From a virus: DNA of 64,000 bases. The notes beneath the pieces are model-generated. The model searched no databases. It was not told the DNA's origin and was given only the letters and a program-made list of their open reading frames with translations. Below, piece by piece: positions 5,003 through 48,724 of the stretch. The stretch spans positions 101,820-165,819 of IMG/VR virus record IMGVR_UViG_3300027917_000019; one strand, 5' to 3'. Every line of letters starts with the position of its first letter. Position 1 is the stretch's first letter. The translations under genes and the position numbers were made by a program.

Positions 5003-5080
5003 GTGGTTGAAATCCTATCGTTTGCTGTGATCCTTCCCTGTGTGCTCATTATCCTCGTTTTGATTTTCTGGGGGGACTAG
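5003..5080 (+). CDS. 25-residue membrane microprotein
   Basis: A GTG-started 25-codon frame lies exactly in the gap between its neighbours. GAGGGA sits 8 nt upstream, and its TAG stop shares one base with the GTG of the CobT-like gene. Apart from MVEI at the start and WGD at the end it is wholly hydrophobic (LIILVLIFW), one transmembrane helix. Perfect tiling with both neighbours argues that it is translated. Confidence 0.6.
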   Translation: MVEILSFAVILPCVLIILVLIFWGD

Positions 5081-6873
5081 TGGCTCGTCGTGTCACCGAA
5101 AGCGTCCTTGAACGTACTGCGAAGCTATTGACGGCTAAGCATAATATCAAGGTACAGTTTAAGCCTGGTGTTGCAGAAACTAAGGGCAACGTGATCACGT
5201 TGCCCACACTGCCTGATAATGCTGACCAGGAATTGATTGACGCGATGCAGGGATACTTGGACCAGCAGGCAGGAAACATTTTGTTCTCAGACAGGAGCGT
5301 TAGTAATTCTCTGAAGAATAAAGCCACACGTAGCAAGAAAGCTGCACAACTGAAAGAGATATTTCAGGTTGTTGAAAACGCTCGTGTTGAATCTTGCATG
5401 GAGAATATCTACCCTGGTTGTGAGGTGAACTTCACCAACGCTCACTGGTGGTTTTACAGCCATCTTCGTGAGAATTGGGACAAGTCTGTCATGGGTAAGG
5501 AAGTAGTCTCTAAGTTTTCGAAGATTCTTGCTGCCAGTTTTCTTGAGCTTCGCCACAGGAATACAGACTTTTACGAAAACTTCATCAGTAAAGAGGTTCG
5601 CGAGAAGGCTGATAAGGTTGTTGAAACAGTAGTTAAGAATGCTCCTAAGGATACACAAGACTCTCTAAAGCTTGCTGAGGAGATTCTTAAGCTTCTTGAG
5701 GAAGAGGCCGAGGAGGACGAGAAGAACCGTCCAGATGACGGGGGTGCCGCAGACGCAGAGGGCACCGAGCAATCTCCGATGGCTATGCCTTCTCAGGGGA
5801 CTAAACAACAATCTGAGAATAAGGGCCAAGAAAGGGCGAAGAGTGCTGGGGATCTGTCTAAGGCTTTGGCTCAGGCGGCCCAGCAAGAGATTTCTGAGCG
5901 AGGAGACCCAAACAAGACTGGTTCCTCATATTGGAGTAGGGATCGCTCCTATGAACACGGGTTGGACGATAAGATTGGGTATTCAATTTTCGATACTTCT
6001 CAAGATTCTATCGAAACTCTCCCGGAGCGTACTACTCCTACCCATGGGGATTACCTCAACTCTTTGAGGAACGAAAGTCGCCAATTTACCTCTATCATGC
6101 GCTTCAAGCTCATAAACACCCTCAGGGCGTCCTCTAAGCGCCGCTGGGTCGGGGGCAAGCCGGAGGGACGTCTAGATGCTAGGCAGGCTCATAAGGCTAT
6201 CCTGGGCGTCTCACAGGACGTTTACAAGACGCGCCAGAAAAAGGTTCATCTCGACACTGCTGTAGCTCTCGCCATCGATCATTCGGGAAGTATGAGTGGT
6301 CGTGCGCTAGAGCTAGCCGCTGAGAGTGCAATTGTTCTAGGGGATGTATTTGATCCTCTGAAGATTCCGTTCATGGTGTATGGGTATAGTACTCGTGGGA
6401 CGCCCAGGACATACCCTGAGTATGATGAACAGCAATTATATTCTCGCTGGTCAAACTTGTGGATTCGTTACTACAAAACTTTCAACGAATCTTGGAATAA
6501 AGGAGCGCTGAAGCTCACGCACGCACGAGACAATTGTCAAGCTAATACGCTCGATGGAGAATCTGTGCTACATGGAATTCAGCACTTGCTTGCGCGCCCA
6601 GAAAAGCGTAAGATACTATTGGTGATGAATGATGGGCATCCTTACCCGGGACATGGACATACGGGACGTTGCCAAGGGTATTTGAAGTCTATCGTCGCCG
6701 CAGGCACACAGGCTGGTGTGGAAATTATTGCCTTTGGCATCCAATCTGCTGACGTAAAAGAGTACTATCCAAATCATGTGGTGATTAACGATTTGGAAGA
6801 CTTGGTGAAAGAGCCTTTGAGAAAGATTGATGGAATTCTTCGTCAAGGAATGCTAAAGGCAATGAGGGGTTGA
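5080..6873 (+). CDS. CobT-like VWA protein, partner of the AAA+ ATPase
   Basis: 597 residues. Helical N-terminal half, then an acidic, low-complexity linker (about residues 205-260), then a C-terminal von Willebrand A domain with MIDAS motif DHSGSMSG (Asp400, Ser402, Ser404). This layout matches CobT, which pairs with CobS-type ATPases like the one at 3641-4726. Phages of several groups carry CobS/CobT-like pairs of unknown purpose. It starts with GTG in a TAGTG overlap with the microprotein gene. Confidence 0.88.
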   Translation: MARRVTESVLERTAKLLTAKHNIKVQFKPGVAETKGNVITLPTLPDNADQELIDAMQGYLDQQAGNILFSDRSVSNSLKNKATRSKKAAQLKEIFQVVENARVESCMENIYPGCEVNFTNAHWWFYSHLRENWDKSVMGKEVVSKFSKILAASFLELRHRNTDFYENFISKEVREKADKVVETVVKNAPKDTQDSLKLAEEILKLLEEEAEEDEKNRPDDGGAADAEGTEQSPMAMPSQGTKQQSENKGQERAKSAGDLSKALAQAAQQEISERGDPNKTGSSYWSRDRSYEHGLDDKIGYSIFDTSQDSIETLPERTTPTHGDYLNSLRNESRQFTSIMRFKLINTLRASSKRRWVGGKPEGRLDARQAHKAILGVSQDVYKTRQKKVHLDTAVALAIDHSGSMSGRALELAAESAIVLGDVFDPLKIPFMVYGYSTRGTPRTYPEYDEQQLYSRWSNLWIRYYKTFNESWNKGALKLTHARDNCQANTLDGESVLHGIQHLLARPEKRKILLVMNDGHPYPGHGHTGRCQGYLKSIVAAGTQAGVEIIAFGIQSADVKEYYPNHVVINDLEDLVKEPLRKIDGILRQGMLKAMRG

Positions 6874-6874
6874 A

Positions 6875-7273
6875 ATGGCAGCGTGTAGATATTGTGGTTA
6901 TAAGGTTCGCCAGTGTGTTTGTGCAAACACCACGTCAGATGGACTTAGTTTTACAACATATGCTGAAGAGGCTGGGGCTACAGCACTTTATCCAAATCGC
7001 GGAGATAACATCGTCTATCCCACACTTGGAATTGCTGGAGAAGCTGGTGAAGTAGCAGAGAAAGTAAAGAAACTCATCCGAGATAAGGGTGGAGTTGTCG
7101 ATGATGAATTCAGGGAAGCTATCAAGAAGGAATTGGGTGACGTGCTGTGGTACCTAACAGCAGCTTCCTATGAACTAGGGTTTACGCTTGAAGATGTGGC
7201 TAAAGCTAACCTAGACAAGTTGTATTCTCGCCGCGCTCGCGGAAAGATTCATGGCGAGGGTGATGATCGCTGA
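6875..7273 (+). CDS. MazG-like nucleotide pyrophosphohydrolase with N-terminal zinc knuckle
   Basis: 132 residues. The MazG helical motif is clear: EAGEVAEKVKK (from residue 56) and ELGDVLWYL (from residue 86) supply the acidic magnesium ligands. Such enzymes hydrolyse NTPs or dNTPs, and phage versions are thought to clean or remodel the nucleotide pool. An extra CxxC-x6-CxC zinc knuckle (Cys4, 7, 14, 16) precedes the catalytic domain and is unusual. It starts 1 nt after the CobT-like stop. Confidence 0.9.
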   Translation: MAACRYCGYKVRQCVCANTTSDGLSFTTYAEEAGATALYPNRGDNIVYPTLGIAGEAGEVAEKVKKLIRDKGGVVDDEFREAIKKELGDVLWYLTAASYELGFTLEDVAKANLDKLYSRRARGKIHGEGDDR

Positions 7274-7286
7274 TTGAGGGGTAAAT

Positions 7287-8600
7287 ATGGGGCGTTTGCT
7301 TTGTTTGGTTGTTGTATTGTTGGCTAGTTGCGCAAGACCAGAGCGCCATCCACCAGACCTTAGAGCAGACGCTGGTTATGCTGCCCTTGTTTGTGACGAG
7401 ACTACAGACCTCCTAACAGATATCAATCATTGTGGGGCCTGTGAAGCTGCTTGTCCTACAGCAGATGCTGATCAGTGCGTTGATGGGGTGTGTATGTGTG
7501 GTTCTCACGAGACATGCATACCTGGGTATGACTGTCGCAATGGCAACTGCGTACCGCGCGATACTTCAGGAAGATTTTGTGAGTTTGACAGCACTTGTGG
7601 TGCAGGATTTGCGTGCATTGAAGGACATTGCTCTCGTTTGGAGTGTGTACCTGAAATCTGCGATGGGTATGACAACGATTGTGACGGCATCGTAGACAAC
7701 TCAGGAGCTACACCCCTGTCTGGTTGGTGTTCTGGGACAGAGGTGGCAGTCCCCGGTTCTGTTATGGCGCCGTGCACTGTTGGGATCCGTCTTTGTGTTG
7801 AGGGGGCTTGGGGAGAGTGTCTAGGAGATGTTCCTCCCGTTCCTGAAGTAGGTTTGTTGGCTTGTGATGGCGCCGATAACGACTGTGACGGGTGTGTTGA
7901 CGGAGTGATTGAGTCAGGGGTTTGTGTATCTCAAGAACCTGTCGGTATTGACGTCTTGTTTCTCATCGACACTTCTGGGTCTATGACTAACAAGATTCAT
8001 ATCGTAAAACAGGCAACCAATCTATTTAGCACCCGCCTTTCAACTAGCTCTAACATCCACTATGGGATTGAGACGGTTCCAGGACCAGTAGATGGAACTC
8101 CAGCGCTGTATCAAGACCTAACTGATTTCGCTACATTTAAGGCTGCGCTGCAAACACTTCCACACGGTGGTAGTGGGTCAGAGCCGCAGTGGGATGCTGT
8201 AGTTGAAGCTCTTGACGGAACACTGTCTGTTTCGTGGACTTCTGGGGCTGCAAAGATCATCATCCTGTTCACAGACGAGGGAGGACAGACAACACGTGCC
8301 CGCCGCACATCTCCAGTGCTTCCGCCTGTCTATGAGGCAGAGATGTGTGCGGCTGTAGTAGCCGCTGGAGTAGCGTTTATTCCTGTAGTAACTGCTCCAT
8401 ATGCAGGAGATTTCGACGACTGTGCCTACCGCAGTGTAACGCTACCTTCTTTTGGTTTGTATGCAGGAACGGGGACTGCGTGCACGGAAGACGCAGACTG
8501 TGATGGCAGCGATACGTGTGAGGCCGCTGTTTGTGTCTCTGCAGCCGTAATAGAAATGGTCAACAATCTGGAAGTTGTTATTGCAAATCCTTGTGGGTAG
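7287..8600 (+). CDS. Predicted lipoprotein with MopE-type metal-binding motifs and VWA domain
   Basis: 437 residues. A short signal peptide ends in lipobox LASC (Cys15), so the protein should be exported and lipid-anchored. A cysteine-rich region follows, with two CDGxDNDCDG motifs (residues 125-137 and 193-205) of the putative metal-binding type known from MopE. Then comes a VWA domain with MIDAS DTSGSMT (Asp228, Ser230, Ser232), and the C terminus has further cysteine clusters. This architecture is typical of surface proteins of myxobacteria and relatives, so the gene was probably captured from a host. A role at the cell surface during infection, such as exclusion or adhesion, is only inferred. 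Confidence 0.85.
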   Translation: MGRLLCLVVVLLASCARPERHPPDLRADAGYAALVCDETTDLLTDINHCGACEAACPTADADQCVDGVCMCGSHETCIPGYDCRNGNCVPRDTSGRFCEFDSTCGAGFACIEGHCSRLECVPEICDGYDNDCDGIVDNSGATPLSGWCSGTEVAVPGSVMAPCTVGIRLCVEGAWGECLGDVPPVPEVGLLACDGADNDCDGCVDGVIESGVCVSQEPVGIDVLFLIDTSGSMTNKIHIVKQATNLFSTRLSTSSNIHYGIETVPGPVDGTPALYQDLTDFATFKAALQTLPHGGSGSEPQWDAVVEALDGTLSVSWTSGAAKIIILFTDEGGQTTRARRTSPVLPPVYEAEMCAAVVAAGVAFIPVVTAPYAGDFDDCAYRSVTLPSFGLYAGTGTACTEDADCDGSDTCEAAVCVSAAVIEMVNNLEVVIANPCG

Positions 8601-8602
8601 TT

Positions 8603-9043
8603 ATGGCTGATAGTGAACTTAAGTATTTGCGTCCGGGGCATGTAAACCTGGACAGACCTTGTGACAAAATCGCCCTGCACGCCGCTAAGTGCCTACCCGG
8701 GACTGGGGAAATGCCTTCGCACTGGCAGTGGGAGTCACAGGAGTCGTTTCTAGAACGCTATTCTGACTTGGGTCCCTTGGTGTGGGCCAAGACTGCGTCC
8801 TATCACATGCTCTTGATAAACGGTAGACACGCATTCAGAATCTGGACAGACTCCCCCAAGACAGCTTTAACTGATGTTTGTAACGAACTTGCAGCTGATT
8901 TAGTGGGTGTTTTCGACATTCTTGACGTTCCAACATCTACTCAACGAAAAACCAAACCAATGACAAAACGCATACGTTTGACGTCAACTAGAGACGTAGA
9001 GATTCTGCTACTACAGACAATTCTCACATTTGGACTCGTATAA
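8603..9043 (+). CDS. Hypothetical protein
   Basis: 146 residues from the ATG at 8603, which follows the lipoprotein stop by 2 nt; the frame is open further upstream but only inside the lipoprotein gene. There is no recognised domain. The central part (residues about 60-110) has beta strands and a TDSPKTALTD segment. It overlaps the next start by 1 nt (TAATG). Confidence 0.65.
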   Translation: MADSELKYLRPGHVNLDRPCDKIALHAAKCLPGTGEMPSHWQWESQESFLERYSDLGPLVWAKTASYHMLLINGRHAFRIWTDSPKTALTDVCNELAADLVGVFDILDVPTSTQRKTKPMTKRIRLTSTRDVEILLLQTILTFGLV

Positions 9044-9354
9044 TGCCGTATATTGTAAACACCTTCCAGTGCTGCTCGTGTGGTCACGAGTTTGAAGAGA
9101 TGTGGATGAAGAAACATGGGGACGATAGCGAGAAGCCGTGGGAAGGTATTGTGGCGTGTCCTGATTGTGAGGGGGAAGATTTGAAGAGACTCATCTCTGC
9201 TACAGGTATAGCTACGTTCAGTATAATGGACCGTGCAGCGCAGATGGAGTCTTTGAAGAAGCGCTCATCAGATCATACTAAGAAGCTAATGAAAACTGAG
9301 AGAGATAGAATTCAAAAGCAGCTAGATCAGAAGCCTAAGGGTGTAGGCGGATGA
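9043..9354 (+). CDS. FmdB-type zinc-ribbon protein
   Basis: 103 residues. The N terminus MPYIVNTFQCCSCGHEFE plus CPDCEG forms a four-Cys zinc ribbon of the FmdB regulator type, followed by a charged helical tail. Small proteins of this kind are common in phages, but their function is not established. The stop overlaps the next start (ATGA). Confidence 0.8.
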   Translation: MPYIVNTFQCCSCGHEFEEMWMKKHGDDSEKPWEGIVACPDCEGEDLKRLISATGIATFSIMDRAAQMESLKKRSSDHTKKLMKTERDRIQKQLDQKPKGVGG

Positions 9355-10058
9355 GCAAAAAAGAAAAGAAGGCATTGGACCTCTTGCAGAAACCTGTTCA
9401 CGTGGCTATATTGCGTCCTGCACACGTACAGAAGCTGGCACAAGAGGGGAAGTTGCCACAGAGACTTCTGTCCATCCCCGTGCGCAACATACCGGATCTT
9501 CCAGACGGAAAGCCGGCGCCTACAGAGAAGCCGGTTGCAAGCTATGCTGCAGCGGCGCGGAGAGGTGCTAAGGCGCGTAGAGAAGTGATGCTTCGCACCA
9601 AGCTTCACGTAATCCATAACAACGTGCCCCCGTTGCCAAAAGACCAACAGCCTCCTTGCCATGATTGTAAAAACTCAGCGTGCTGTTATGCCTTCATGGT
9701 CAACATAACGGCAGAAGAATACGAAAGTGGGTTGTACGGGGATTACGCAGTAAAGCTCACACACAAGGACGCTGAAAATCTTGGTGACGGAAGGTTTGCT
9801 CGTATTGCGACAATGAGGACACCGGCTGTACACGACATAGTTGAAGGGCAGCCACAATACTATCTTGAAGGCCCTGTAGGGCGTGCATGCCCGATGCTTC
9901 AGGAAGACGGGAAGTGTGGCATTTATGAGAAGCGACCAATTACTTGTAGGGTTTACACCTGTGTTGGGGATAAGCGCATAACTGAAGAGATGAGAAACGG
10001 CGATATAGACATTGAAGAAGCGTTGATGAACTGGATGGTGGACTATCGTGCTGAGTGA
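9351..10058 (+). CDS. YkgJ-family Cys-cluster protein (zinc or iron binding)
   Basis: 235 residues. A basic, Ala-rich N-terminal third precedes the cysteine cluster CHDCKNSACC (about residues 103-112), and later GKCGIYEKRPITCRVYTC. This pattern is characteristic of the YkgJ/UPF0153 family, proposed to bind zinc or an iron-sulfur centre. The biochemical role is not known. It overlaps the polymerase gene start by 11 nt. Confidence 0.8.
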   Translation: MSKKEKKALDLLQKPVHVAILRPAHVQKLAQEGKLPQRLLSIPVRNIPDLPDGKPAPTEKPVASYAAAARRGAKARREVMLRTKLHVIHNNVPPLPKDQQPPCHDCKNSACCYAFMVNITAEEYESGLYGDYAVKLTHKDAENLGDGRFARIATMRTPAVHDIVEGQPQYYLEGPVGRACPMLQEDGKCGIYEKRPITCRVYTCVGDKRITEEMRNGDIDIEEALMNWMVDYRAE

Positions 10059-12246
10059 AGTCAAAGAATATGATGTAGTCAATCAAGTTCCTATGACTCG
10101 TTTTGACGGGGTAGAGCATTGCAAGCTTTACCTAGTTAACACCAAGTCTGAGTGGAGCGCTTTCTTTGAACTTCTTATGAAGCAGAAATTGGTAGCGTGC
10201 GATACAGAAACTAGCGGGTTTCATTACTTCAAGGATGATAGAATTTGCGGTCTTTCCTTTGGTTGGGGGAAGACCCATTTTTACATTCCTGTTAGACATC
10301 TTGAATCTATTACAGGCGGTCCTCCTCCCCCACAGTTGTCCATGGATGACATTCGTGAGGACCTCATAGCCTTCTTTAGTCAAGAAGACGTTTGTACCAT
10401 TTGGCACAACTGGAAGTTTGACGCGCATTTTTACCGCGCTGATGGAATTGAGATCCTAACGAAGATTCACGATACGCGCACCTTGTGGCACTTCTACGAT
10501 GAGAATGCTCCTGGAAAACTAAAGGTAATCGCATCAGGTTGGACAGACGATTTGGGGCGTAGGCACAGAGGAATCGTTCATAAGGCTGCCAACTTGTCTG
10601 AAAAGCAAATTGATAAGTGGCGTTCTGAAGAGGCGAGGGCTAGACGTAAAGCGTTTTCTGCGCTTGTGATGCAGAAGGCAGATGAGCTTCAGAGAGATCC
10701 TAAGTATCAAGGGTTCAATCGTAGAGACTTGAAGAAGTCTATAGCGGTTCCTATGCTGAAGAACCACATCTATTATGACGCACATAAGGATGATGTTCAC
10801 TACGGATATATTCCCGTTCCGTTGATGTGTAGGTATGCTGGTTTGGATACTTTCCTAACATGGTCTATATATGAGTATGTCATGAGCAACATGAACTTTA
10901 CTCGTAGACTTCAAAAGCTGTATAACAACGAGATCAAGCTCGCGCGCGTCCTAATGGAAGCTGAGGAAAAGGGCGTACTAATCGATAAAGACTACCTAGA
11001 AGACTTAGGGCAACAATACGACGCCGATGTGGAGAAGCTTGAGAAAGAACTCTGCAACCAGCTAGGCAACATCAACATAGGGTCTAATTCGCAACTCGCT
11101 GAGGCACTTCTTGCTACAGGAGTACCTCTTACAGCAAAGACAGACTCAGCTAGAGACTGTGTTGCCTGTGCACAAGGTACTTGTGTAGAACACTTCTCTG
11201 TAGACGCTAAAGCTCTCAAAAAGTTTGAGCACAACTACCCAGCGGTTAAGCTAATACTCGAACATAGAACCCTTACAAAGTTGAGGAATACCTACGTAAC
11301 CGGCATTCTCAACAAACTTACGGACGACAACATCCTACATTGCTCGTTCAACCAGAACGTGAAGACTGGACGAATGTCGTCCAATGACCCCAACCTACAA
11401 AACATCCCTGGGCGTGATACAAGCATACGTAGAGCATTCGTTTGTCCTGGTGATGATTGGGTTTTTGTATTCTTAGACTATTCACAGGTAGAAGTTAGAC
11501 TAACCGCGCATTATTCACAGGACCCCCTGCTACTAGACGCATATGCAAGAGGTCAGGACGTACACACACGCACTTTCTGTGAGATGTTTGGGCATGAGTA
11601 CTCAGAAGTTGTTGCGGTATTAGCTAACGAGACACACCCCAAATATAAGGAATACTCCGCACTTCGAACCATTGCTAAGCGCATCAACTTCGGAATCATC
11701 TATGGTGTAGGTGCTCCCGGTCTTAGTGAACAGATCCCTCGACCCAAGCAGCACGAACATCTTAGCAACCGAGAGTGGGTCAAAGTTTGTCAAGATTTCA
11801 TCGACCAGTATTTGGACAAGTATCTAGGAGTAAGGCGTTTTGTAAATGAAGGCAAGCGTACCGTTAGGCGTTACCAACAGATGGAGAATTCCTTCGGTCG
11901 CATTCGTCATCTACCACACGCGAAGGCATGTAGAATCCTCCAAGATAAGAGCAAGTTCTGGCTAGAAGCACGCGCAGGAAGACAAGGTGTCAACTTCTTG
12001 ATTCAAGGTGATGCTGCAGACGTGTTTAAGACAGCAACCGTCAGGGTGGCTGAACTTCTTCGTGGAAAGAAGTCTCATATCGTGAACTTTGTACACGACG
12101 AAATTCAGATATACATGCACAAATCTGAGATTCCCTTGCTCAAAGAAATCAAACGACAGATGGAGGATTTCCCCCAGTTTACCGTACCTCTACTAGTCGA
12201 TATACAGTTCAGCACAACAAACTGGGCTTCAAAGGAAAATATCTAA
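10048..12246 (+). CDS. DNA polymerase, family A, with 3'-5' exonuclease
   Basis: 732 residues, the replicative polymerase. The proofreading domain shows Exo I ACDTETSGF (Asp52, Glu54), Exo II WHNWKFDAHF and an Exo III-like CRYAGLDTF. The polymerase domain shows motif A FLDYSQVE, motif B KRINFGIIYG and motif C VHDE. A Cys-rich insert (CVACAQGTC) sits near the thumb and may bind zinc. There is no 5' nuclease domain, as in T7-type enzymes. GTG start inside the previous gene. Confidence 0.95.
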   Translation: MLSEVKEYDVVNQVPMTRFDGVEHCKLYLVNTKSEWSAFFELLMKQKLVACDTETSGFHYFKDDRICGLSFGWGKTHFYIPVRHLESITGGPPPPQLSMDDIREDLIAFFSQEDVCTIWHNWKFDAHFYRADGIEILTKIHDTRTLWHFYDENAPGKLKVIASGWTDDLGRRHRGIVHKAANLSEKQIDKWRSEEARARRKAFSALVMQKADELQRDPKYQGFNRRDLKKSIAVPMLKNHIYYDAHKDDVHYGYIPVPLMCRYAGLDTFLTWSIYEYVMSNMNFTRRLQKLYNNEIKLARVLMEAEEKGVLIDKDYLEDLGQQYDADVEKLEKELCNQLGNINIGSNSQLAEALLATGVPLTAKTDSARDCVACAQGTCVEHFSVDAKALKKFEHNYPAVKLILEHRTLTKLRNTYVTGILNKLTDDNILHCSFNQNVKTGRMSSNDPNLQNIPGRDTSIRRAFVCPGDDWVFVFLDYSQVEVRLTAHYSQDPLLLDAYARGQDVHTRTFCEMFGHEYSEVVAVLANETHPKYKEYSALRTIAKRINFGIIYGVGAPGLSEQIPRPKQHEHLSNREWVKVCQDFIDQYLDKYLGVRRFVNEGKRTVRRYQQMENSFGRIRHLPHAKACRILQDKSKFWLEARAGRQGVNFLIQGDAADVFKTATVRVAELLRGKKSHIVNFVHDEIQIYMHKSEIPLLKEIKRQMEDFPQFTVPLLVDIQFSTTNWASKENI

Positions 12247-12956
12247 TGGATGAGACCCTAACCTCTATTACTATCATTTTGGATCGTTCCGGCTCCATGA
12301 GTCCTCTTCGAAACGACGTCATCGAAGGTGTGAATGCCTTCATTCGAGACCAGCAAAAGACAGAAGGCAAGGCTACCGTCAGCTTGGTGCAGTTTGATGA
12401 TCGCTACGAAGAGAACTACATGAATCTTCCTCTTGAGAAGGCTGAGTTCCTTTCTGAGGAAACTTACGAACCTCGCGGGCTTACTGCACTCTTGGACGCT
12501 GTAGGGCGTTGTGTCAAGAATGCTAAGCAGCGTGTAAAAGAGATGCCCAAGGCTAAACGACCTGCAAAGAACATTGTCTTGATATTCACAGACGGTGCTG
12601 AAAATGCTTCCCAAGAGTGGACTAAGGAAAAGGTGGCAGCACTGGTAAAGAAGCAAGAAGACAAGCACAACTGGAAGTTTGTATTCTTGGGGGCTAATAT
12701 CGATTCCTTTGGCACCGCCTCTTCATACGGAATCTCTGCTGGATCTACATCCAATTTCAACGCAAGCTCCAAGGGCATCAGGTCTGCTCTTTACGGCGCA
12801 AGTAATGCTGTAACATACGCACGTAATCAAAGCACAGAAGAGTATACTGAAACAGCAACTCTTCTTAGGAGTGCGGGTGTGGATGAGAACATTGACGACA
12901 ACTCTGTTACTGGAACAGAATTCGACGTAACAACTAACACAGAGGAAAACAAGTGA
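12246..12956 (+). CDS. Stand-alone VWA domain protein
   Basis: 236 residues, almost entirely a von Willebrand A domain with MIDAS DRSGSMS near residue 13, a Thr in the TALLD loop and the TDGAEN motif. No signal peptide, so cytoplasmic. The start overlaps the polymerase stop (TAATG) and the stop overlaps the next start (GTGA). Related single-domain proteins occur in many phages. It could use the same AAA+ partner as the CobT-like protein, but nothing in the sequence proves that. Confidence 0.88.
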   Translation: MDETLTSITIILDRSGSMSPLRNDVIEGVNAFIRDQQKTEGKATVSLVQFDDRYEENYMNLPLEKAEFLSEETYEPRGLTALLDAVGRCVKNAKQRVKEMPKAKRPAKNIVLIFTDGAENASQEWTKEKVAALVKKQEDKHNWKFVFLGANIDSFGTASSYGISAGSTSNFNASSKGIRSALYGASNAVTYARNQSTEEYTETATLLRSAGVDENIDDNSVTGTEFDVTTNTEENK

Positions 12957-13207
12957 AAGAACTACTTAGGCCGACATATCGACGTGTTACAGGGATACAC
13001 GTCGATGCTCAACCTGCTGGGAATCCTGTTCATGTAAATGATTGTACTGTAACGGTAGCACAACACTGGACAGATGCGTCAATTACAGACCTCACAGTAT
13101 TCCTGCTCAAGTTTGTAGTAGCTGCCGTTCCGGCAGTGGCTCTTACCTTCCTAATCTACATGCTAACCTTTCTAGCTGTTGCAACAGCTTCAGGACTGCT
13201 GCGATGA
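12953..13207 (+). CDS. Small membrane protein
   Basis: 84 residues, GTG start with 4-nt overlap on both sides (GTGA, ATGA). A polar N-terminal half is followed by one long or two short hydrophobic helices (about residues 46-82). No family recognised. Placement between VWA and recombination genes does not reveal its role. Confidence 0.7.
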   Translation: MKELLRPTYRRVTGIHVDAQPAGNPVHVNDCTVTVAQHWTDASITDLTVFLLKFVVAAVPAVALTFLIYMLTFLAVATASGLLR

Positions 13208-13692
13208 GTGATGAAATACTAGATCAGGAATATGATGTCGATGGTGTAGCTCATCGCTCAGAGTTGGCGAAAGATCTTGACATTGATCGCTTGAATTTGA
13301 GTGAGGAGTTCGAAAAGCACAGTAAGCGCTATGCTTGGTATGCAACTGCTTACGAACTATGCCTTGACAAAGAACGTCGCCTCAAGGCAGAGCTAGGCAG
13401 GGCGTACGCCCATTTGGATGCTCAAGCGCGTGCCAACATGACGAGTAATGGCATTCGTATCAGCGAAAAGAAGGTAGAAAACATGGTAATTACTGCCTCT
13501 GATTATGTGGCGCTCCAAGAGGAATATCATGAAGCGCAGCGCATGACAGGCTTGCTAAAAGCTGCTCGCGATGCTATGATCAGCAAGAAAGATTGCCTGG
13601 TATCACTAGGCGCCAATATTCGTGCGGAACTTGCTAGTGACCCTAGCCTCCTTCAAGAGATGTACCGCACAAAACACGGAAACCAGAAGTAA
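13204..13692 (+). CDS. Helical protein, possible recombination mediator
   Basis: 162 residues from the ATG that overlaps the preceding stop; a longer frame from 13042 lies inside the membrane-protein gene and is rejected. The protein is charged and alpha-helical, with DLDIDRLNLSEEFEKHS near the start and LISLGANIRAEL-like wording near the end. Proteins of this look often precede the phage single-strand binding protein, and some are UvsY-like loaders of RecA/UvsX. The neighbouring SSB and RecA genes fit, but the assignment is tentative. Confidence 0.6.
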   Translation: MSDEILDQEYDVDGVAHRSELAKDLDIDRLNLSEEFEKHSKRYAWYATAYELCLDKERRLKAELGRAYAHLDAQARANMTSNGIRISEKKVENMVITASDYVALQEEYHEAQRMTGLLKAARDAMISKKDCLVSLGANIRAELASDPSLLQEMYRTKHGNQK

Positions 13693-13722
13693 CTATTACA
13701 ACCCGTACAATGGAGAAAAACC

Positions 13723-14595
13723 ATGGGACTAGATTGGGATAAACTAAATCAGCAAAAGCAACGTCTTGATACAAAGCTCTCTAAGGGTGGAGGTGGAACA
13801 CGCGCCAGATTCTGGAGACCCCAGGATGGCGAAAACCGCATCCGCATCATGCCCAGTTGGACTGGAGAAGGCGACTTCTCTGGACAGTTTTGGCGCGAAA
13901 TCGGACAGCATTGGAATGTGTCCGAGGAACAGCGCGGTCCTGTTCTTTGTCCAAAGAACACGCCGTACCTTACAGGGCCTTGTCCTATCTGCCAATTCGT
14001 TGACGAACTAAAGAAGTTGAAGAGTGATACGCACGCTCAGGAAGTAGCAAAGGATTTGCGTTCTAAGACGGCGTTCCTTCTCAATATCGTTGACGTCAAC
14101 GATCTTACGTACACAGCGGCAGACGTAGCCGAGTTTAAGAAGGCTCGTCCTGAAGCTGATGTACCGTTCGAGGTTGGTCACGTAAAGGTACAGGTTTATG
14201 CTTGTCCCTCTACAGTGTTCAATCAGATCTTGTCCACCATCCAGGTAAACGGAACAGACGTTACTGACCCCCAGGCGGGCCATGACGTCACCATCCGCAA
14301 GTCTGGTAAGGGACTGAAGACTCGCTACGAAACGACTATCGTGCTTAAGAGCACAGTAGCCCCGCCCGTAGAGACTCTTCCTGATCTTAGCAGCGTCGGG
14401 TATTCTATGAGCGTGGAAGATCTCACTGATCTTCTTGCAGGTGGTGCGGGCGTGGAGTTCATGTCCACGTTTAAAAACGCCCTGCCTACTGCTACATCAC
14501 TTGTAGGCGCTCCTAGGGACGACGAAGGGGAAGACGATGGGAGTGACGAAGATGCCGCCGCTCTCAGGGAAAAGATGCTAGCTGCTGTTAGCTGA
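13723..14595 (+). CDS. Single-stranded DNA-binding protein, T4 gp32-like
   Basis: 290 residues. The basic N terminus contains a GGGG turn. A core follows with a Cys cluster (CPKN...GPCPIC, near residues 75-90) that can bind zinc as in gp32, and FLLNIVDVND-type OB strands. The C-terminal tail is strongly acidic (EDDGSDEDAA), the usual docking site for replication partners. GGAG lies 8 nt before the ATG. A strong terminator follows directly, so it can be the last gene of the upstream operon. Confidence 0.85.
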   Translation: MGLDWDKLNQQKQRLDTKLSKGGGGTRARFWRPQDGENRIRIMPSWTGEGDFSGQFWREIGQHWNVSEEQRGPVLCPKNTPYLTGPCPICQFVDELKKLKSDTHAQEVAKDLRSKTAFLLNIVDVNDLTYTAADVAEFKKARPEADVPFEVGHVKVQVYACPSTVFNQILSTIQVNGTDVTDPQAGHDVTIRKSGKGLKTRYETTIVLKSTVAPPVETLPDLSSVGYSMSVEDLTDLLAGGAGVEFMSTFKNALPTATSLVGAPRDDEGEDDGSDEDAAALREKMLAAVS

Positions 14596-14603
14596 TTTGT
14601 TGT

Positions 14604-14651
14604 GGGTAGGTCTAGGGCGTTGAGTTTAGCGCCCTAGATCTACCCATTTTT
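14604..14651 (+). terminator. Intrinsic terminator after the SSB gene
   Basis: Arms 14604-14619 and 14630-14645 pair over 16 bp with one G-T wobble (GGGTAG at the outer end, TAGGGCG at the inner end), with a 10-nt loop. ATTTTTCTT follows directly. It separates the polymerase/SSB operon from recA, whose ribosome site GGAG begins a few bases later. Confidence 0.9.
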
Positions 14652-14664
14652 CTTGGAGACAACT

Positions 14665-15675
14665 ATGAACAAAGAAGCAGCAAGACAGGCAGCGATTGCC
14701 GCAATTGAAAAAGCGTTTGGTAAGAATACAATCACAGCCGCTAGTGACTATGCTGCTCCTGATGTAGAAGTTATTCCCAGTGGTTCATTGGGAATTGATT
14801 TCCTATCGGGAATTGGCGGGTACGCTAGAGGGCGTATCATTGAGATTTACGGCCCCAATGCCAGCGGTAAGACAACACTCACACTACACGCTATCGCAGA
14901 AGCCCAAAAGAGGGGCGGTAAGTGTGCGTTTGTAGATGCAGAACATACATTTCATCACGATTACGCACAAGCCATCGGTGTAAACTTAGAAACCCTAGAC
15001 CTACACAATCCCGATTCTGGTGAAGAGGCTTTGGAAGTGGTGGATATTCTAACGAAGTCCACTGCTTACGATCTGATCGTAATCGATTCAGTGTCTGCCC
15101 TCGTACCTAAAAAAGAGATAGAAGGCGAGATGGGCGACAGTCATGTGGGGCTTCAAGCACGCCTCATGGGACAGGCTTGTCGTAAGCTTGCCGGGTCTGT
15201 TAGTAAGACAGGAACTACTGTCATCTTTTTGAACCAACTTCGTACAAAGATTGGAGTCATGTTTGGCTCTCCTGAAACTACAAGCGGTGGAAACTCTTTG
15301 GCCTTCTATGCTTCCCTTAGACTAGACGTTCGTCGCATCGGTAGCATTAAGTCTGGAGATACTGTCATCGGTGGGCGTACTCGTGTTAAGGTCGTAAAGA
15401 ACAAGTTGGCGGGTACTTCATACGCTACGTGTGAGTTTGACATGTACTCCAACAATGAATATGGCGCTGGAATTTCCTATCACGGAGAGGTTTTCGAGGC
15501 TGCTGTAAAGCTAGGAATCATTGACAAAGCAGCGGCTTGGTACTCTTACAACGAGGAACGTCTAGGACAGGGCAAGGATAATGCAGTGTTGGCCTTGAAG
15601 AAGCATCCTGAAATATTTGCAGTAGTTGATGCCGCTGTTCGAAAGGAGCTTGGTCTTGTCAAAACCGCTGATTGA
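14665..15675 (+). CDS. recA: RecA recombinase
   Basis: 336 residues from the ATG at 14665, which has TTGGAGAC as ribosome site; the frame also opens at a TTG at 14653 that is part of that site. Walker A is GPNASGKT (63-70) where bacterial RecA usually has GPESSGKT. The [23 protein letters not shown] and TTSGGNSL segments are the RecA L1/L2 signature. It catalyses strand exchange in recombination-dependent replication and repair. The next gene begins 20 nt before its stop. Confidence 0.97.
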
Positions 15676-16771
15676 ATTGGTCGCTTTTTCGGACCTACAC
15701 GCACACAATTACCGCTATGGCAGTAAGCGTGTGCCTCACCCAAATGCTGGTGGCTTGTTCAATAGTAGGTTGTTGGACTGCGTTTCTGTTCTACGAGATA
15801 TAGAGAAGTACTGTGTTGACCACGTTATCAAACACGTACTTTTCGGAGGGGATTTGTTCCATCGCAGGTCCGTACTGCATACCGATGTCTTTAATGTGAT
15901 ACATCGTGAGTTCGCAAGAATGAATCAACTGCACTTCACAATGCTTCCAGGAAATCATGACTATAGTGATAGAACTGGGCACATTCATTCTCTTGAAGCG
16001 TTTTCTCAACTGCCGCATGTAGATGTTTTGGACAAACACAAGCGCTATCTATTTGATCCTGAAGATCATAGTACCTGTATGGCTATTCTCCCCGTTCCGT
16101 ACACAGATGATCGAGAGGAAGCGAAAAAGCGTTTAGAGCACGCTGGTGAGCTTGCTGAGAACCAAAACGTACCCACACTTCTTTTGGCGCACCTGGGTAT
16201 GCAGGGAGCAACTGTAGGAAGCGACTATGTACTTGTTTCAGATTCAGATATAGGGGTAGCTGATGTCCCGTACGAAAAGTTCACTGCCTGCCTCTTCGGA
16301 CACTACCACCAACACCAACAATTGTTTAGAAACGGTTGGTACATCGGAGCCACCCATCAACACAACTGGGGAGACGCAAACACAAACAGAGGATTCTTAC
16401 ACATCAGAGTCTTCGACGACAGAATTGAGTTTGTTCAAGTCCCTACTAGTGCCCCACGCTTTTTCAACATACAAGAAGTCGACCCTGACGCTGTGGAAGT
16501 TCACCCACGTGATTTCGTTCGCTATCATACGAGAGCAGGGGGAATCAGGGACGTTCGTGAAGTGGAACAAAGATACAATAACCACCACGTGGAAATTATC
16601 GAACACAACGAAACCGAACAAGAAGATCTCAGACTCCCTGAAGGAACTCTTGAACCCCGCGCACTGGTCGAAAGCTGGGTCAGCTCCAAAAACACCGACA
16701 AAGACTCCACAGAAGCCAAAATAGCGTTGGGTAAAGAGCTGCTAGCTGAGGCAGAGGATGAGGTACTATGA
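15656..16771 (+). CDS. SbcD/Mre11/gp47-like DNA exonuclease subunit
   Basis: 371 residues. Metallophosphoesterase motifs are in order: [35 protein letters not shown] and FGHYHQHQ, giving the two-metal site of the Mre11 nuclease. The start is set at TTG 15656 because AAAGGAG sits 7 nt upstream; earlier in-frame starts lack such a site. It works with the gp46-like ATPase at 17012-18937 to process double-strand ends for RecA. Confidence 0.93.
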
Positions 16772-17037
16772 GCAATCAAATAATCATTACAGACTCTCAG
16801 CAAGTGTTTCAGATCGACTGTAATGTTGATCTCGTTGTGCCTGACGACGGGACTGAATACCATTCTGCAGACCTTGTGTGGGCAGGAGCTTTGAACTCTG
16901 TTCGTAAACATGCCGAAGGACTAGTAGTTCCCGGCAAGAAATATTCGGTCAAGGTTATAGCAGTCATCATTGAACTACCTGATGAACTTGAAGATACTAC
17001 AAAGGGGCTAAATGAGGTTTCTAACACTACACGCTGA
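16768..17037 (+). CDS. Hypothetical protein between gp47- and gp46-like genes
   Basis: 89 residues, overlapping the nuclease gene by 4 nt (ATGA) and the ATPase gene by 26 nt. Predicted beta-rich in the middle with an acidic LPDELEDTT segment near the end. No family recognised. A small gene also lies between 47 and 46 in T4-like phages, so an accessory role is possible. Confidence 0.7.
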   Translation: MSNQIIITDSQQVFQIDCNVDLVVPDDGTEYHSADLVWAGALNSVRKHAEGLVVPGKKYSVKVIAVIIELPDELEDTTKGLNEVSNTTR

Positions 17038-18937
17038 GAACTTCATGCGTTTGGGGAATGTTTCCCTTCCTTTAGATGGTCAAGGATTGGTTCTCCTTCT
17101 TGGTGAAAACAGGGATGCTTCAAAAGCTTCTAGCAACGGAGCCGGTAAGAGCGCTCTTCTCGATGCCCTCTGTTGGTGTTTGTGGGGGAAGACTATCCGT
17201 GGTAAGAAGGACGACGGTGTTGTTCGTAGAGACGTAGGGCGAGACTGCAAGGTCGTGGTTGAGTGGTTGGACGGAGACTCTCACTACCGCGTGACTAGAT
17301 ATCGTCTACACACCGGTCCTGAAGCTAAGAAGCCGAACGATGTGGTCTTTGAGGTGAATGGAGAGACTGACGACGGCGCAGGGATGGCCAAGACTCAGGA
17401 GCGCATCATAGAGGCTCTAGGGCTGTCATTCAGGACCTTCCAGGCCATGATGCCAGGTGCTGGGGTCAAGGTGGCAGAGTTGACAGACGGGGGCGTCAAA
17501 GAGCTTCTAGAGACCCTCCTACAGATGGACGTCATCTCCAAAGCACAAGACATCACGAAAAAGAAGCTGGCGGCAATCTCTGAAGACCTCTTGAATAAGA
17601 GAAGAAAGGTCCAACAACTTGAGACCAAGGCTGCAGAGTATCGAGAGCTTATTCAAACGTACTCAGAAGCACAGAAGTCCTTTGAAGAGGATAAGCGCAA
17701 AGAGGTCTTAGACGTTCAGGCAAAGATAGGTGATTTGCTAGATCGTAGAGAACAAGTCCTCGTACGAGTAAAAGCAAAGGAAGAAGCCCAGAAGACTTTA
17801 GACAACGTAACCGCCCGTGCTAGCACCCTTCGTGACGAGAAGAGAGCGGCGCTTATAGCAGAAAAGCAACACAATATTATCTTGGCGGAATACAATGCAA
17901 ACTCCAGAGAAACAATTGCTGGGCTTAAGACTGAACTTAGACTTCTCAACGATAAAATCACCAAACTCAAGGGGTTGGGAGACGTGTGTGACCACTGCGG
18001 CCAAACTATCTCTGGAGAATATAAGTCCCAACAGACGGTTAGGAATCAAGCTGTTTATGAAAAGGCGCTTGAAAATTGTACAGATGTAACTGCAAGAATA
18101 AACGAGAGTCGAATAGCTTTAGAGGCTAATTGTAGGGCTGCAGAAACAACTGTAAAGAAGCTCTCAGAAGACATTGCTCTTCTCAACAATCAAGCTATGG
18201 AGTTGAAGGCGACTATAACAGACGGGGAGTATGCACAGCGAGAAGCTGACGACTTGTGGGTACAGATGGGCAGCCTTTCTGAACTTCAGGATGAGATAGT
18301 TGCTCGCACAGCACCTTTCAAGGGGCTTATTGCAAACGCAGTAGATAATGAATACGAAATAACTGCTGAGAGTCTTGAAATCAAGGCCGCCATAAAGGAC
18401 CTGGAAGTAACAGAAGAGAACCTCAAGTTCTGGGTTGAGGGTTTCAGTGCTAGAGGTCTTAGAAGCCTAATGTTACAGCACGTTACGCCGATACTAAATT
18501 CCCGCGTTAAATACTATGCAGACATCTTGACAGACAGTGAAATGACTATCAACTTCTCCACAGAGAGACAACTTCGTAGTGGTAAGACTAAAGAGGAATT
18601 CACCGTTCAAGTGATCCAAAAGGATGGTGATGACTCTTACTGCGGGTCTTCTTCAGGAGAAAGAGCTAAGGCCGATCTTGCCATTGCGTTCGCATTGGGG
18701 GATTTGGCTCAACTCCGCGCGAATAAGAGGATATCTTTCCGTTTCTTGGACGAGCCTTTCGAGTCTATCGATGCCACAGGACATGAGAGTATCGTTAGAC
18801 TTCTCAACGAACAAAGGCTACAATACTCCACCGTTTTCTGCATCACACACAAAGAGTCTTTTCAACAACTGTTTCCCAAAGCCTTTAAGGTGGTAAAGGA
18901 AAACGGTGTTTCAAGATTGGAGCAAGCGCATGAGTAA
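17012..18937 (+). CDS. SbcC/Rad50/gp46-like ATPase
   Basis: 641 residues. The Walker A loop is long (GENRDAS...GAGKS, residues 31-47). Two coiled-coil arms flank a zinc hook CDHC (residues 326-329). The C-terminal lobe has an ABC signature (SSGERAKADLAIAFAL) and Walker B FRFLDEPFES. Partner of the gp47-like nuclease; together they resect and bridge DNA ends. The arms are much shorter than in bacterial SbcC, as usual for phages. Confidence 0.95.
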   Translation: MRFLTLHAENFMRLGNVSLPLDGQGLVLLLGENRDASKASSNGAGKSALLDALCWCLWGKTIRGKKDDGVVRRDVGRDCKVVVEWLDGDSHYRVTRYRLHTGPEAKKPNDVVFEVNGETDDGAGMAKTQERIIEALGLSFRTFQAMMPGAGVKVAELTDGGVKELLETLLQMDVISKAQDITKKKLAAISEDLLNKRRKVQQLETKAAEYRELIQTYSEAQKSFEEDKRKEVLDVQAKIGDLLDRREQVLVRVKAKEEAQKTLDNVTARASTLRDEKRAALIAEKQHNIILAEYNANSRETIAGLKTELRLLNDKITKLKGLGDVCDHCGQTISGEYKSQQTVRNQAVYEKALENCTDVTARINESRIALEANCRAAETTVKKLSEDIALLNNQAMELKATITDGEYAQREADDLWVQMGSLSELQDEIVARTAPFKGLIANAVDNEYEITAESLEIKAAIKDLEVTEENLKFWVEGFSARGLRSLMLQHVTPILNSRVKYYADILTDSEMTINFSTERQLRSGKTKEEFTVQVIQKDGDDSYCGSSSGERAKADLAIAFALGDLAQLRANKRISFRFLDEPFESIDATGHESIVRLLNEQRLQYSTVFCITHKESFQQLFPKAFKVVKENGVSRLEQAHE

Positions 18938-47623: not shown

Positions 47624-47651
47624 ACCTTATCCATCGTTTCCGCGTTGTCAA
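47624..47651 (-). promoter_or_regulatory. TTGACA promoter-like element
   Basis: TTGACA (47651-47646), 16-nt spacer, TAAGGT (47629-47624) on the minus strand, 6 nt before the ATG at 47617. TAAGGTAGGGG also reads as a ribosome site, so the -10 assignment is uncertain. TTGACA includes the stop codon of the small terminase gene. Confidence 0.4.
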
Positions 47652-48292
47652 TCGTCGTCGTCGATAAGTTCACCCTCTACGATATTGTCTGCCGGTAGTC
47701 TAGCCGGCGGTTCAGGATCTGCCAGCTTGGATAGTTGTGCTTCTACTACAGCGGATACTAAAGCTTTTTGTTCCGGCTGTTGTAGGGACCTAATGAGCGG
47801 GGATACTTGTACTTCGACAGTAGTTTTGCTGGTCGCTCTTTCAAGCCTACCCAAGTCCATGAGAAGCTTTGTATGCTTCTCTCTCGCCTGCATCACCAGC
47901 GCTAGAGCCTTTGTCTTGGTAGCATCATCCCCCTGGTGATACAATTCCCAAGCTTTATGCTCTACCTCTTCATAGAGAGAAGCCGTTTCTCCGACAGTAT
48001 GATCTTGATCGATGCTTTGCCCACGCTCAACTAGGTGTTCTCTAATACGCGCCATTTCTTTCGAAATGACTGGTTGAGAAACTTTTAGAAACCCTGCCAT
48101 CGCTGACTGGCTCAATCCTCGTAGCTTGAAGCGCGCTATCAGTTGCTGTCTTTCTGTTAAACCCTCATAGGGGTCCGTCTGAAGCAGCTTTAGGTCTTCC
48201 TCGGTACTTAGGGCGTCTGCTACCTTGACAGCCTCAGCGAGGTCCCCAGCTTGAGGACGTCCATTCTTTCCACCGGTTGGTTTTCTAGCCAT
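47648..48292 (-). CDS. Probable terminase small subunit
   Basis: 214 residues. The start MARKPTGGKNGRP and helix-turn-helix LTERQQLIARFKLRGLSQSAMAGFLKVSQPVISKEMARI are typical of DNA-recognising small terminases; a helical oligomerisation part and an acidic tail (ELIDDDD) follow. A sigma-region-4-like regulator is the alternative. TGGAGG ribosome site and a strong promoter lie upstream. The large subunit is 11 kb away on the other strand. Confidence 0.62.
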   Translation of the reverse strand: MARKPTGGKNGRPQAGDLAEAVKVADALSTEEDLKLLQTDPYEGLTERQQLIARFKLRGLSQSAMAGFLKVSQPVISKEMARIREHLVERGQSIDQDHTVGETASLYEEVEHKAWELYHQGDDATKTKALALVMQAREKHTKLLMDLGRLERATSKTTVEVQVSPLIRSLQQPEQKALVSAVVEAQLSKLADPEPPARLPADNIVEGELIDDDD

Positions 48293-48310
48293 GTGTAACC
48301 TCCAGTGGAA

Positions 48311-48339
48311 ATTATAACACGTTTATTCGAAACTGGGAA
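48311..48339 (-). promoter_or_regulatory. Strong sigma-70-like promoter of the small terminase gene
   Basis: On the minus strand TTCCCA (48339-48334), 17-nt spacer, then consensus TATAAT (48316-48311) preceded by TGT as an extended -10. It sits between the tRNA-like RNA and the gene, so it can restart transcription after RNA processing. Confidence 0.7.
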
Positions 48340-48344
48340 AAGGT

Positions 48345-48483
48345 TGCCGGGTGAGGGGATCGAACCCCCATCATCCTGACCCTCTAGACTAGTATAGAGG
48401 GCTTCATCTTCCTTGCGAGAAGATTATCGGGTCTGTTGCTAGTCACTGCACGTGGGTTGACTATCCCCCACTAACTACCCGAC
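48345..48483 (-). ncRNA. tRNA-like RNA with expanded central region
   Basis: 5' GTCGGGT (48483-48477) pairs with 3' ACCCGGC (48352-48346) over 7 bp with one G-T, followed by an unpaired A. The T arm GGGGG-TTCGATC-CCCTC is canonical. Between them, instead of normal D and anticodon arms, are GTGGG/CCCAC (10-nt loop), TCTTC/GAAGA with a 7-nt loop TCGCAAG (anticodon position reads GCA) and CCCTCTA/TAGAGGG (8-nt loop, like a long variable arm). No CCA is encoded. At 139 nt it is too long for a standard tRNA and too short for a usual tmRNA. Confidence 0.65.
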
Positions 48484-48523
48484 AGGCTGTTTTTTACCGC
48501 TTAAACTAACCCGGCGTAATCTT

Positions 48524-48724
48524 TCAAACGAACAGCAGCATAACTGCTATCTTTGCAGCAAGTTCTGCATTCTTTTGAGGCGTTGTAATCACCTCCCGCG
48601 TCCCCCTGCGCCCCTTCCCTACGAATCGCGTCGGAGTCCAGTCTTCCGGTACCGGCTCTTCCTCGGGCGTGGGGCGCAGGGGGATAACGGTGATTTCCAT
48701 CAAGTGAAAGCGAAGCGGATCCAC
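48524..48724 (-). CDS. Hypothetical protein
   Basis: 66 residues from GTG 48724, which has AGGAAG 6 nt upstream; the first ATG (48700) has no ribosome site. Pro/Glu-rich centre (PTPEEEPVPEDW) and a hydrophobic end (KIAVMLLFV). No family recognised. Confidence 0.5.
   Translation of the reverse strand: MDPLRFHLMEITVIPLRPTPEEEPVPEDWTPTRFVGKGRRGTREVITTPQKNAELAAKIAVMLLFV

Follow-up and report, generated by a model that had tools for sequence, protein, structure and literature searches.

RNAC (species 1 RNA) of phage T4, which has been classed as a late RNA and validated by northern blot (PMC9697503), is an RNA whose role is unknown (PMC3014915), and is annotated as a small stable RNA of 139 nt (NC_000866.4, 70908-71046). 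Expanded tRNA-like RNAs encoded by phages are almost unstudied. A large domain replaces the anticodon loop in tmRNA, which has a tRNA-like end, and intron-containing tRNAs, of either the group I or the bulge-helix-bulge type, are likewise interrupted in the anticodon loop. The same position is exploited in engineered tRNA scaffolds for RNA expression, where a structured RNA replaces the anticodon loop of an intact tRNA body. Such scaffolds are man-made, whereas the same design is found here in a phage genome, in a tRNA-like gene within the window, the stretch of DNA that was analysed and the final 64 kb of a 165,819-bp virus record.

A permissive Rfam search of positions 48100-48700 (601 bases against all families) aligned the tRNA family RF00005 over model positions 1-71 with a score of 34.6 bits against a cut-off of 29 (E = 1.6e-5), and a 104-nt gap in this alignment falls in the anticodon loop. 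The gene occupies 48345..48515 on the minus strand and is 171 nt long, counting the discriminator base A73, as delimited by RF00005 and by a strict scanner that requires acceptor, D-arm and T-arm features and permits any insert of up to 400 nt. The scanner returned a single site in the 64-kb window, the tRNA-like gene, and none in 40 dinucleotide shuffles searched on both strands, which together with the end-to-end Rfam match confirms the tRNA-like element reported in an earlier note on this DNA. Default ARAGORN and fast-mode Rfam report nothing at the locus, so the checks with these programs that had been proposed are positive only in part, with a tRNA in the permissive Rfam search and an interrupted tRNA in ARAGORN intron mode. 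Expanded tRNA-like RNAs are thus a class that default tRNA finders and the Rfam fast mode miss.

The layout of the gene from 5' to 3' is GCCGGGU-UA-GUUU-AAGCGGUAAA-AAAC-A-GCCUG-(104 nt) up to and including the insert and CAGGA-UGAU-GGGGG-UUCGAUC-CCCUC-ACCCGGC-A after the insert, all of the following elements lying on the minus strand. The 5' acceptor strand GCCGGGU (48509..48515) pairs with ACCCGGC (48346-48352) with a probability of 0.68-1.0, and the resulting stem of 7 bp is entirely Watson-Crick; A73 follows at 48345. The D arm, GUUU-AAGCGGUAAA-AAAC (48489..48506), has a stem of 4 bp and was identified by both the Rfam alignment and the scanner, and the T arm, GGGGG-UUCGAUC-CCCUC (48353..48369 in the Rfam alignment), has a stem of 5 bp. 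Bases that are invariant in tRNA are present at U8, A14, G18G19 and A21 and in the T loop, the variable loop is 4 nt long, and an A15-U48 Levitt pair is possible. The 5' strand of the anticodon stem, CCUG (48483..48486), pairs with CAGG (48375..48378) and is flanked by a G.A mismatch. CCA is not encoded, the bases after A73 being ACCTTTT, and addition of CCA by the host is possible. It is very probable that this anatomy, a tRNA body with a 104-nt insert in the anticodon loop, is correct.

The earlier note had described a 139-nt RNA with an acceptor stem formed by GUCGGGU (48483-48477), no D arm, a GCA anticodon hairpin and a giant variable arm. Its 3' boundary at 48345 and its canonical T arm with a UUCGAUC loop agree with the present anatomy; its size does not, as the 5' end lies at 48515 rather than 48483, and therefore the RNA is 171 nt long and has a complete D arm. 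GUCGGGU could pair with ACCCGGC through six Watson-Crick pairs and one U.G pair, but in the 171-nt RNA the probability of this pairing is 0.00, and its UCGGGU has ACCCGA, within the insert, as its partner (probability 0.94-1.0). With the inner acceptor and the T arm both enforced, the fold is about 10 kcal/mol less stable (-53.1 versus -63.4 kcal/mol for the outer acceptor and T arm); the outer acceptor, moreover, is perfectly paired and leads into a proper D arm, all of which makes the 139-nt RNA extremely improbable. The wrong 5' end is explained by the start of the insert, where GUCGGGU-AGUU (48483-48472, minus strand) is a repeat, 32 nt downstream, of the first bases of the tRNA, GCCGGGUUAGUU (48515-48503, minus strand). 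This repeat may be a partial duplication.

The 104-nt insert (48379..48482, minus strand) replaces the 7-nt anticodon loop and consists of three hairpins that abut on the 4-bp anticodon stem CCUG/CAGG. The first (48427..48482) is closed by UCGGGU/ACCCGA with a pairing probability of 0.94-1.0 and contains an inner stem, GUGGG/CCCAC (48467-48471/48452-48456), with a probability of about 0.9-1.0; the second is AUCUUC-UCGCAAG-GAAGAU (48406..48424, 0.89-1.0); and the third is CCCUCUA-UACUAGUC-UAGAGGG (48380..48401, 0.97-1.0). The insert folds more stably than its shuffles (z = -2.5), with 5 of 500 shuffles folding equally well. The hairpins GUGGG/CCCAC, UCUUC/GAAGA and CCCUCUA/UAGAGGG had been noticed previously and are real, with pairing probabilities of about 0.9-1.0, but were thought to replace both the D and the anticodon arms; the D arm is complete, and it is the anticodon loop that has given way to 104 nt. 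UCUUC/GAAGA does enclose a 7-nt loop, UCGCAAG, with GCA at the position of a Cys anticodon and C at '33', as had been pointed out, but this is a hairpin of the insert and not the anticodon arm of the tRNA. CCCUCUA/UAGAGGG likewise lies inside the anticodon-loop insert and is not a giant variable arm. The description as an expanded tRNA or tRNA mimic that is neither a normal tRNA nor a normal tmRNA was right in spirit, the replacement of the D arm excepted.

To place the gene among tRNAs, its 3' end is informative. The last 25 nt, GGGGGTTCGATCCCCTCACCCGGCA, which span the T arm, the acceptor 3' strand and A73, are identical in alphaproteobacterial tRNA-Thr(UGU) and occur in at least 118 genome-contig stretches, overwhelmingly of Alphaproteobacteria by record title. 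Ordinary tRNA-Thr(UGU) of 72-73 nt to A73 accounts for 111 of the 119 occurrences examined, one of which is in a viral contig, and a slightly looser pattern than the 25-mer was found in a single viral contig, within an ordinary tRNA-Thr. Agreement with tRNA-Thr(UGU) extends to the first 10 nt and to GCGGU in the D loop. The two differ in the D stem, where GCAC/GUGC is replaced by GUUU/AAAC and is paired in both; in the anticodon stem; in the anticodon loop UUUGUAA, which is replaced by the 104 nt; and in CCA, which many genomic copies encode and the tRNA-like gene does not. A D stem altered on both sides yet still paired is as expected of a Thr-type tRNA diverging under selection for its fold, and compensatory change was seen only in this stem, in comparison with alphaproteobacterial tRNA-Thr. 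The anatomy is better than chance and the resemblance to tRNA-Thr is plain; judged from these sequence matches, the tRNA-like gene would descend from a Thr-type tRNA, convergence being a possible alternative source of the likeness.

The remaining 8 of the 119 copies are 3' ends that start near the anticodon loop and lack a 5' half, suggesting that the tRNA-Thr(UGU) gene is likely to be an integration hotspot for mobile elements. Together with the 25-nt identity, these truncated copies, which are typical of elements integrated in a tRNA-Thr gene, raise the alternative of an attP site, in which the 3' end of a tRNA-Thr gene of the host serves for integration of the phage and the rest of the tRNA likeness arose by chance. 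In the truncated genomic copies, however, the shared sequence runs for about 45 nt from the anticodon, as opposed to only 25 nt in the phage gene, and a matching 5' half with a D arm is also present in the phage. Neither the tyrosine nor the serine recombinase family (PF00589 and PF00239) was found in the record, which is possibly incomplete. Since no recombinase matches and the 5' half is carried, an attP site is a very improbable explanation.

The location of the insert in the anticodon loop, the classical site of tRNA introns, raises the question of splicing, that is, of a functional tRNA with a small intron removed by a host or some other route. ARAGORN intron mode gives an interrupted tRNA at the locus, and joins near positions 37/38 leave a 7-nt loop with U33. 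However, each of the nine joins that retain U33 would put a Pro anticodon (CGG or GGG) and a mismatched stem on a body of Thr type, no bulge-helix-bulge was found by script at the exon junctions, and group I and group II intron families gave no match at E <= 10 in the Rfam search of the 601 bases. A length of 97-99 nt is too short for a known group I intron. RtcB, RNA ligase and tRNA endonuclease families were not found in the record, and a tmRNA implies a bacterial host, as does the one carried by this phage; an alphaproteobacterium is a candidate host. The tRNA-like gene thus departs from intron-containing tRNAs in having no recognisable intron type, no sensible product and no splicing genes found in the phage, and splicing is unlikely. 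The solution that ARAGORN itself proposed, a Tyr(ATA) tRNA with an 86-nt intron, was rejected because its anticodon stem would be mismatched and its variable arm odd.

Left unspliced, the RNA has 104 nt where a decoding tRNA has an anticodon loop of 7 nt with U33, and because neither this nor any spliced form has a sensible Thr anticodon loop, the 171-nt RNA would be non-decoding and is probably unable to read the genetic code. There is also no decoding need for it, given that ordinary Thr tRNAs with the anticodons CGU, GGU and UGU are present in the record. These belong to a set of 38 ordinary tRNAs that cover all 20 amino acids and lie at 27-41 kb, opposite in strand to the tRNA-like gene, together with a one-piece tmRNA whose tag is ADNAALPLAA; array coordinates are 7263-18624 of record segment 20001-40000 and 520-595 of another segment. 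Nearly all other tRNAs of the phage, unlike the tRNA-like gene, encode CCA. The presence of this proper tmRNA elsewhere also separates the tRNA-like gene from tmRNA, as do its full D stem and an insert too short for a tag ORF and pseudoknots, and no tmRNA match was obtained at the locus with Rfam or ARAGORN. A tRNA of the array with a CUA anticodon, named Pyl by ARAGORN, is a possible amber suppressor, and TAG is the stop codon of 5 of the 46 window ORFs checked.

The nearest known kind, by analogy of design, is T4 RNAC. Both RNAs are phage-encoded and have a canonical T arm beside an acceptor-like terminal stem, with large hairpins replacing the decoding part, so that the tRNA-like gene can be described as RNAC-like in architecture, not in homology. 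The terminal stem of RNAC is imperfect, with two U.U mismatches by inspection, and no Rfam family, tRNA models included, scores above its cut-off for RNAC. The tRNA-like gene differs in having complete acceptor, D and T arms with the change confined to the anticodon loop and in lying far from the tRNA array, and the two phages are unrelated by DNA. The tRNA-like RNA is a clearer case than RNAC because its body is fully tRNA-like and all of the change is in the anticodon loop. It is a second case, found in a phage unrelated to T4; with its tRNA body unmistakable and its novelty restricted to that loop, it offers a clean test of what such RNAs do.

The interpretation that we favour, with moderate confidence, is that the tRNA-like gene specifies a stable, non-decoding phage RNA with the body of a tRNA. 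It draws on the end-to-end Rfam match, the shuffle result, the identity to tRNA-Thr, the paired D stem, the structured insert, the redundancy of the Thr tRNAs and the precedent of T4 RNAC. Against it stand the occurrence in one genome, the unencoded CCA, the fact that no promoter-like site was found for the gene, the G.A mismatch at the anticodon stem and a better alternative fold: for the whole 171-nt RNA the cloverleaf form is 5.9 kcal/mol worse than the unconstrained fold, in which the D, T and anticodon arms do not appear. The strongest competing explanation is a pseudogene: a Thr-type tRNA that, having diverged within the phage, was recently broken by an insertion of approximately 97-99 nt in the anticodon loop, with nothing now under selection. 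Restriction to a single genome and absence from relatives, the unencoded CCA, the redundancy with three other Thr tRNAs and a short direct repeat, GGGU, bordering the insert on either side would all fit a broken gene. The acceptor, D and T stems, however, are fully paired and without decay, the insert is structured rather than random, and its source was sought in the phage itself and in relatives with nothing convincing found, and so a pseudogene is a serious possibility without being a probable one.

Under the preferred reading of a stable RNA, the 171-nt RNA would be transcribed together with the minus-strand genes, and host enzymes for which the tRNA elbow and the acceptor stem are recognition features would cut both ends, through RNase P, 3' processing and CCA addition. 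The product would then be shielded from decay in the manner of a tRNA and could act as a natural 'tRNA scaffold' presenting the three hairpins. Expression, processing, stability and the lack of decoding are what we infer for this RNA, as is any decoy role; its most likely use would be as a decoy for host factors that act on tRNA. A more specific and tentative proposal is that the phage exchanged the anticodon loop of a Thr-type tRNA for the three-hairpin domain and so obtained a stable, non-decoding RNA that would exploit the processing of tRNA, and its own likeness to tRNA, to bind or block such factors, for example anticodon nucleases. Phage tRNAs counter tRNA-cutting defences, and an altered anticodon abolished this effect (PMC11555353), so that for an RNA lacking an anticodon such a decoy role is speculative.

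The tRNA-like gene begins 8 nt beyond an ORF that ends at 48524, and 52 nt separate its end from a downstream gene for a 214-aa protein (47648..48292, minus strand). The latter has no Pfam match, appears HTH-like and is perhaps a small terminase. The strong promoter previously placed just after the RNA corresponds to a promoter-like sequence, TTCCCA-17-TATAAT (48311..48339, minus strand, 10/12 matches), whose -10 element is extended. Chance alone, however, would be expected to produce 0.6 +/- 0.9 sites of this kind in the 1.6 kb scanned, and from its position downstream of the tRNA-like gene the site would serve the 214-aa gene. No promoter-like site for the tRNA-like gene itself was found in the same 1.6 kb.

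The phage has terL relatives among viral contigs at 41-62% identity, one of which is 169 kb in length with about 30 tRNAs. Homologues of the 214-aa gene are present in 5 of 12 related contigs, and one of these contigs also shares the upstream-encoded protein (32% over 60 aa). The 214-aa gene is therefore conserved in relatives that lack the tRNA-like gene: no tRNA match lies beside its homologues in related contigs, upstream DNA having been read in two, nor did the other parts of the relatives that were read yield an interrupted tRNA. The absence of the tRNA-like gene from the terL relatives indicates that it is lineage-specific at this depth. No further expanded tRNAs were found in the phage's own tRNA array or in the 169-kb relative, no homologues of the gene were found in phages by DNA similarity, and a DNA search with an E-limit of 10 returned only fragments of 21-28 nt, mostly T-arm ends of tRNAs. 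A pattern search of viral contigs for the tRNA body with an insert yielded nothing, and the matches to a looser version were ordinary tRNAs or chance. The 214-aa protein alone as a query retrieved no relatives from viral contigs, and Rfam matches to miRNA families near the locus were far below their cut-offs. Long runs of a GTTACC/GTAACC-type hexamer repeat occur near the 214-aa homologue in a related viral contig (139-242 and 494-624 of the segment of that contig). Elsewhere in the window, a 597-aa protein (5080-6873, plus strand) matches phage families annotated as cobaltochelatase CobT or cobalamin biosynthesis.
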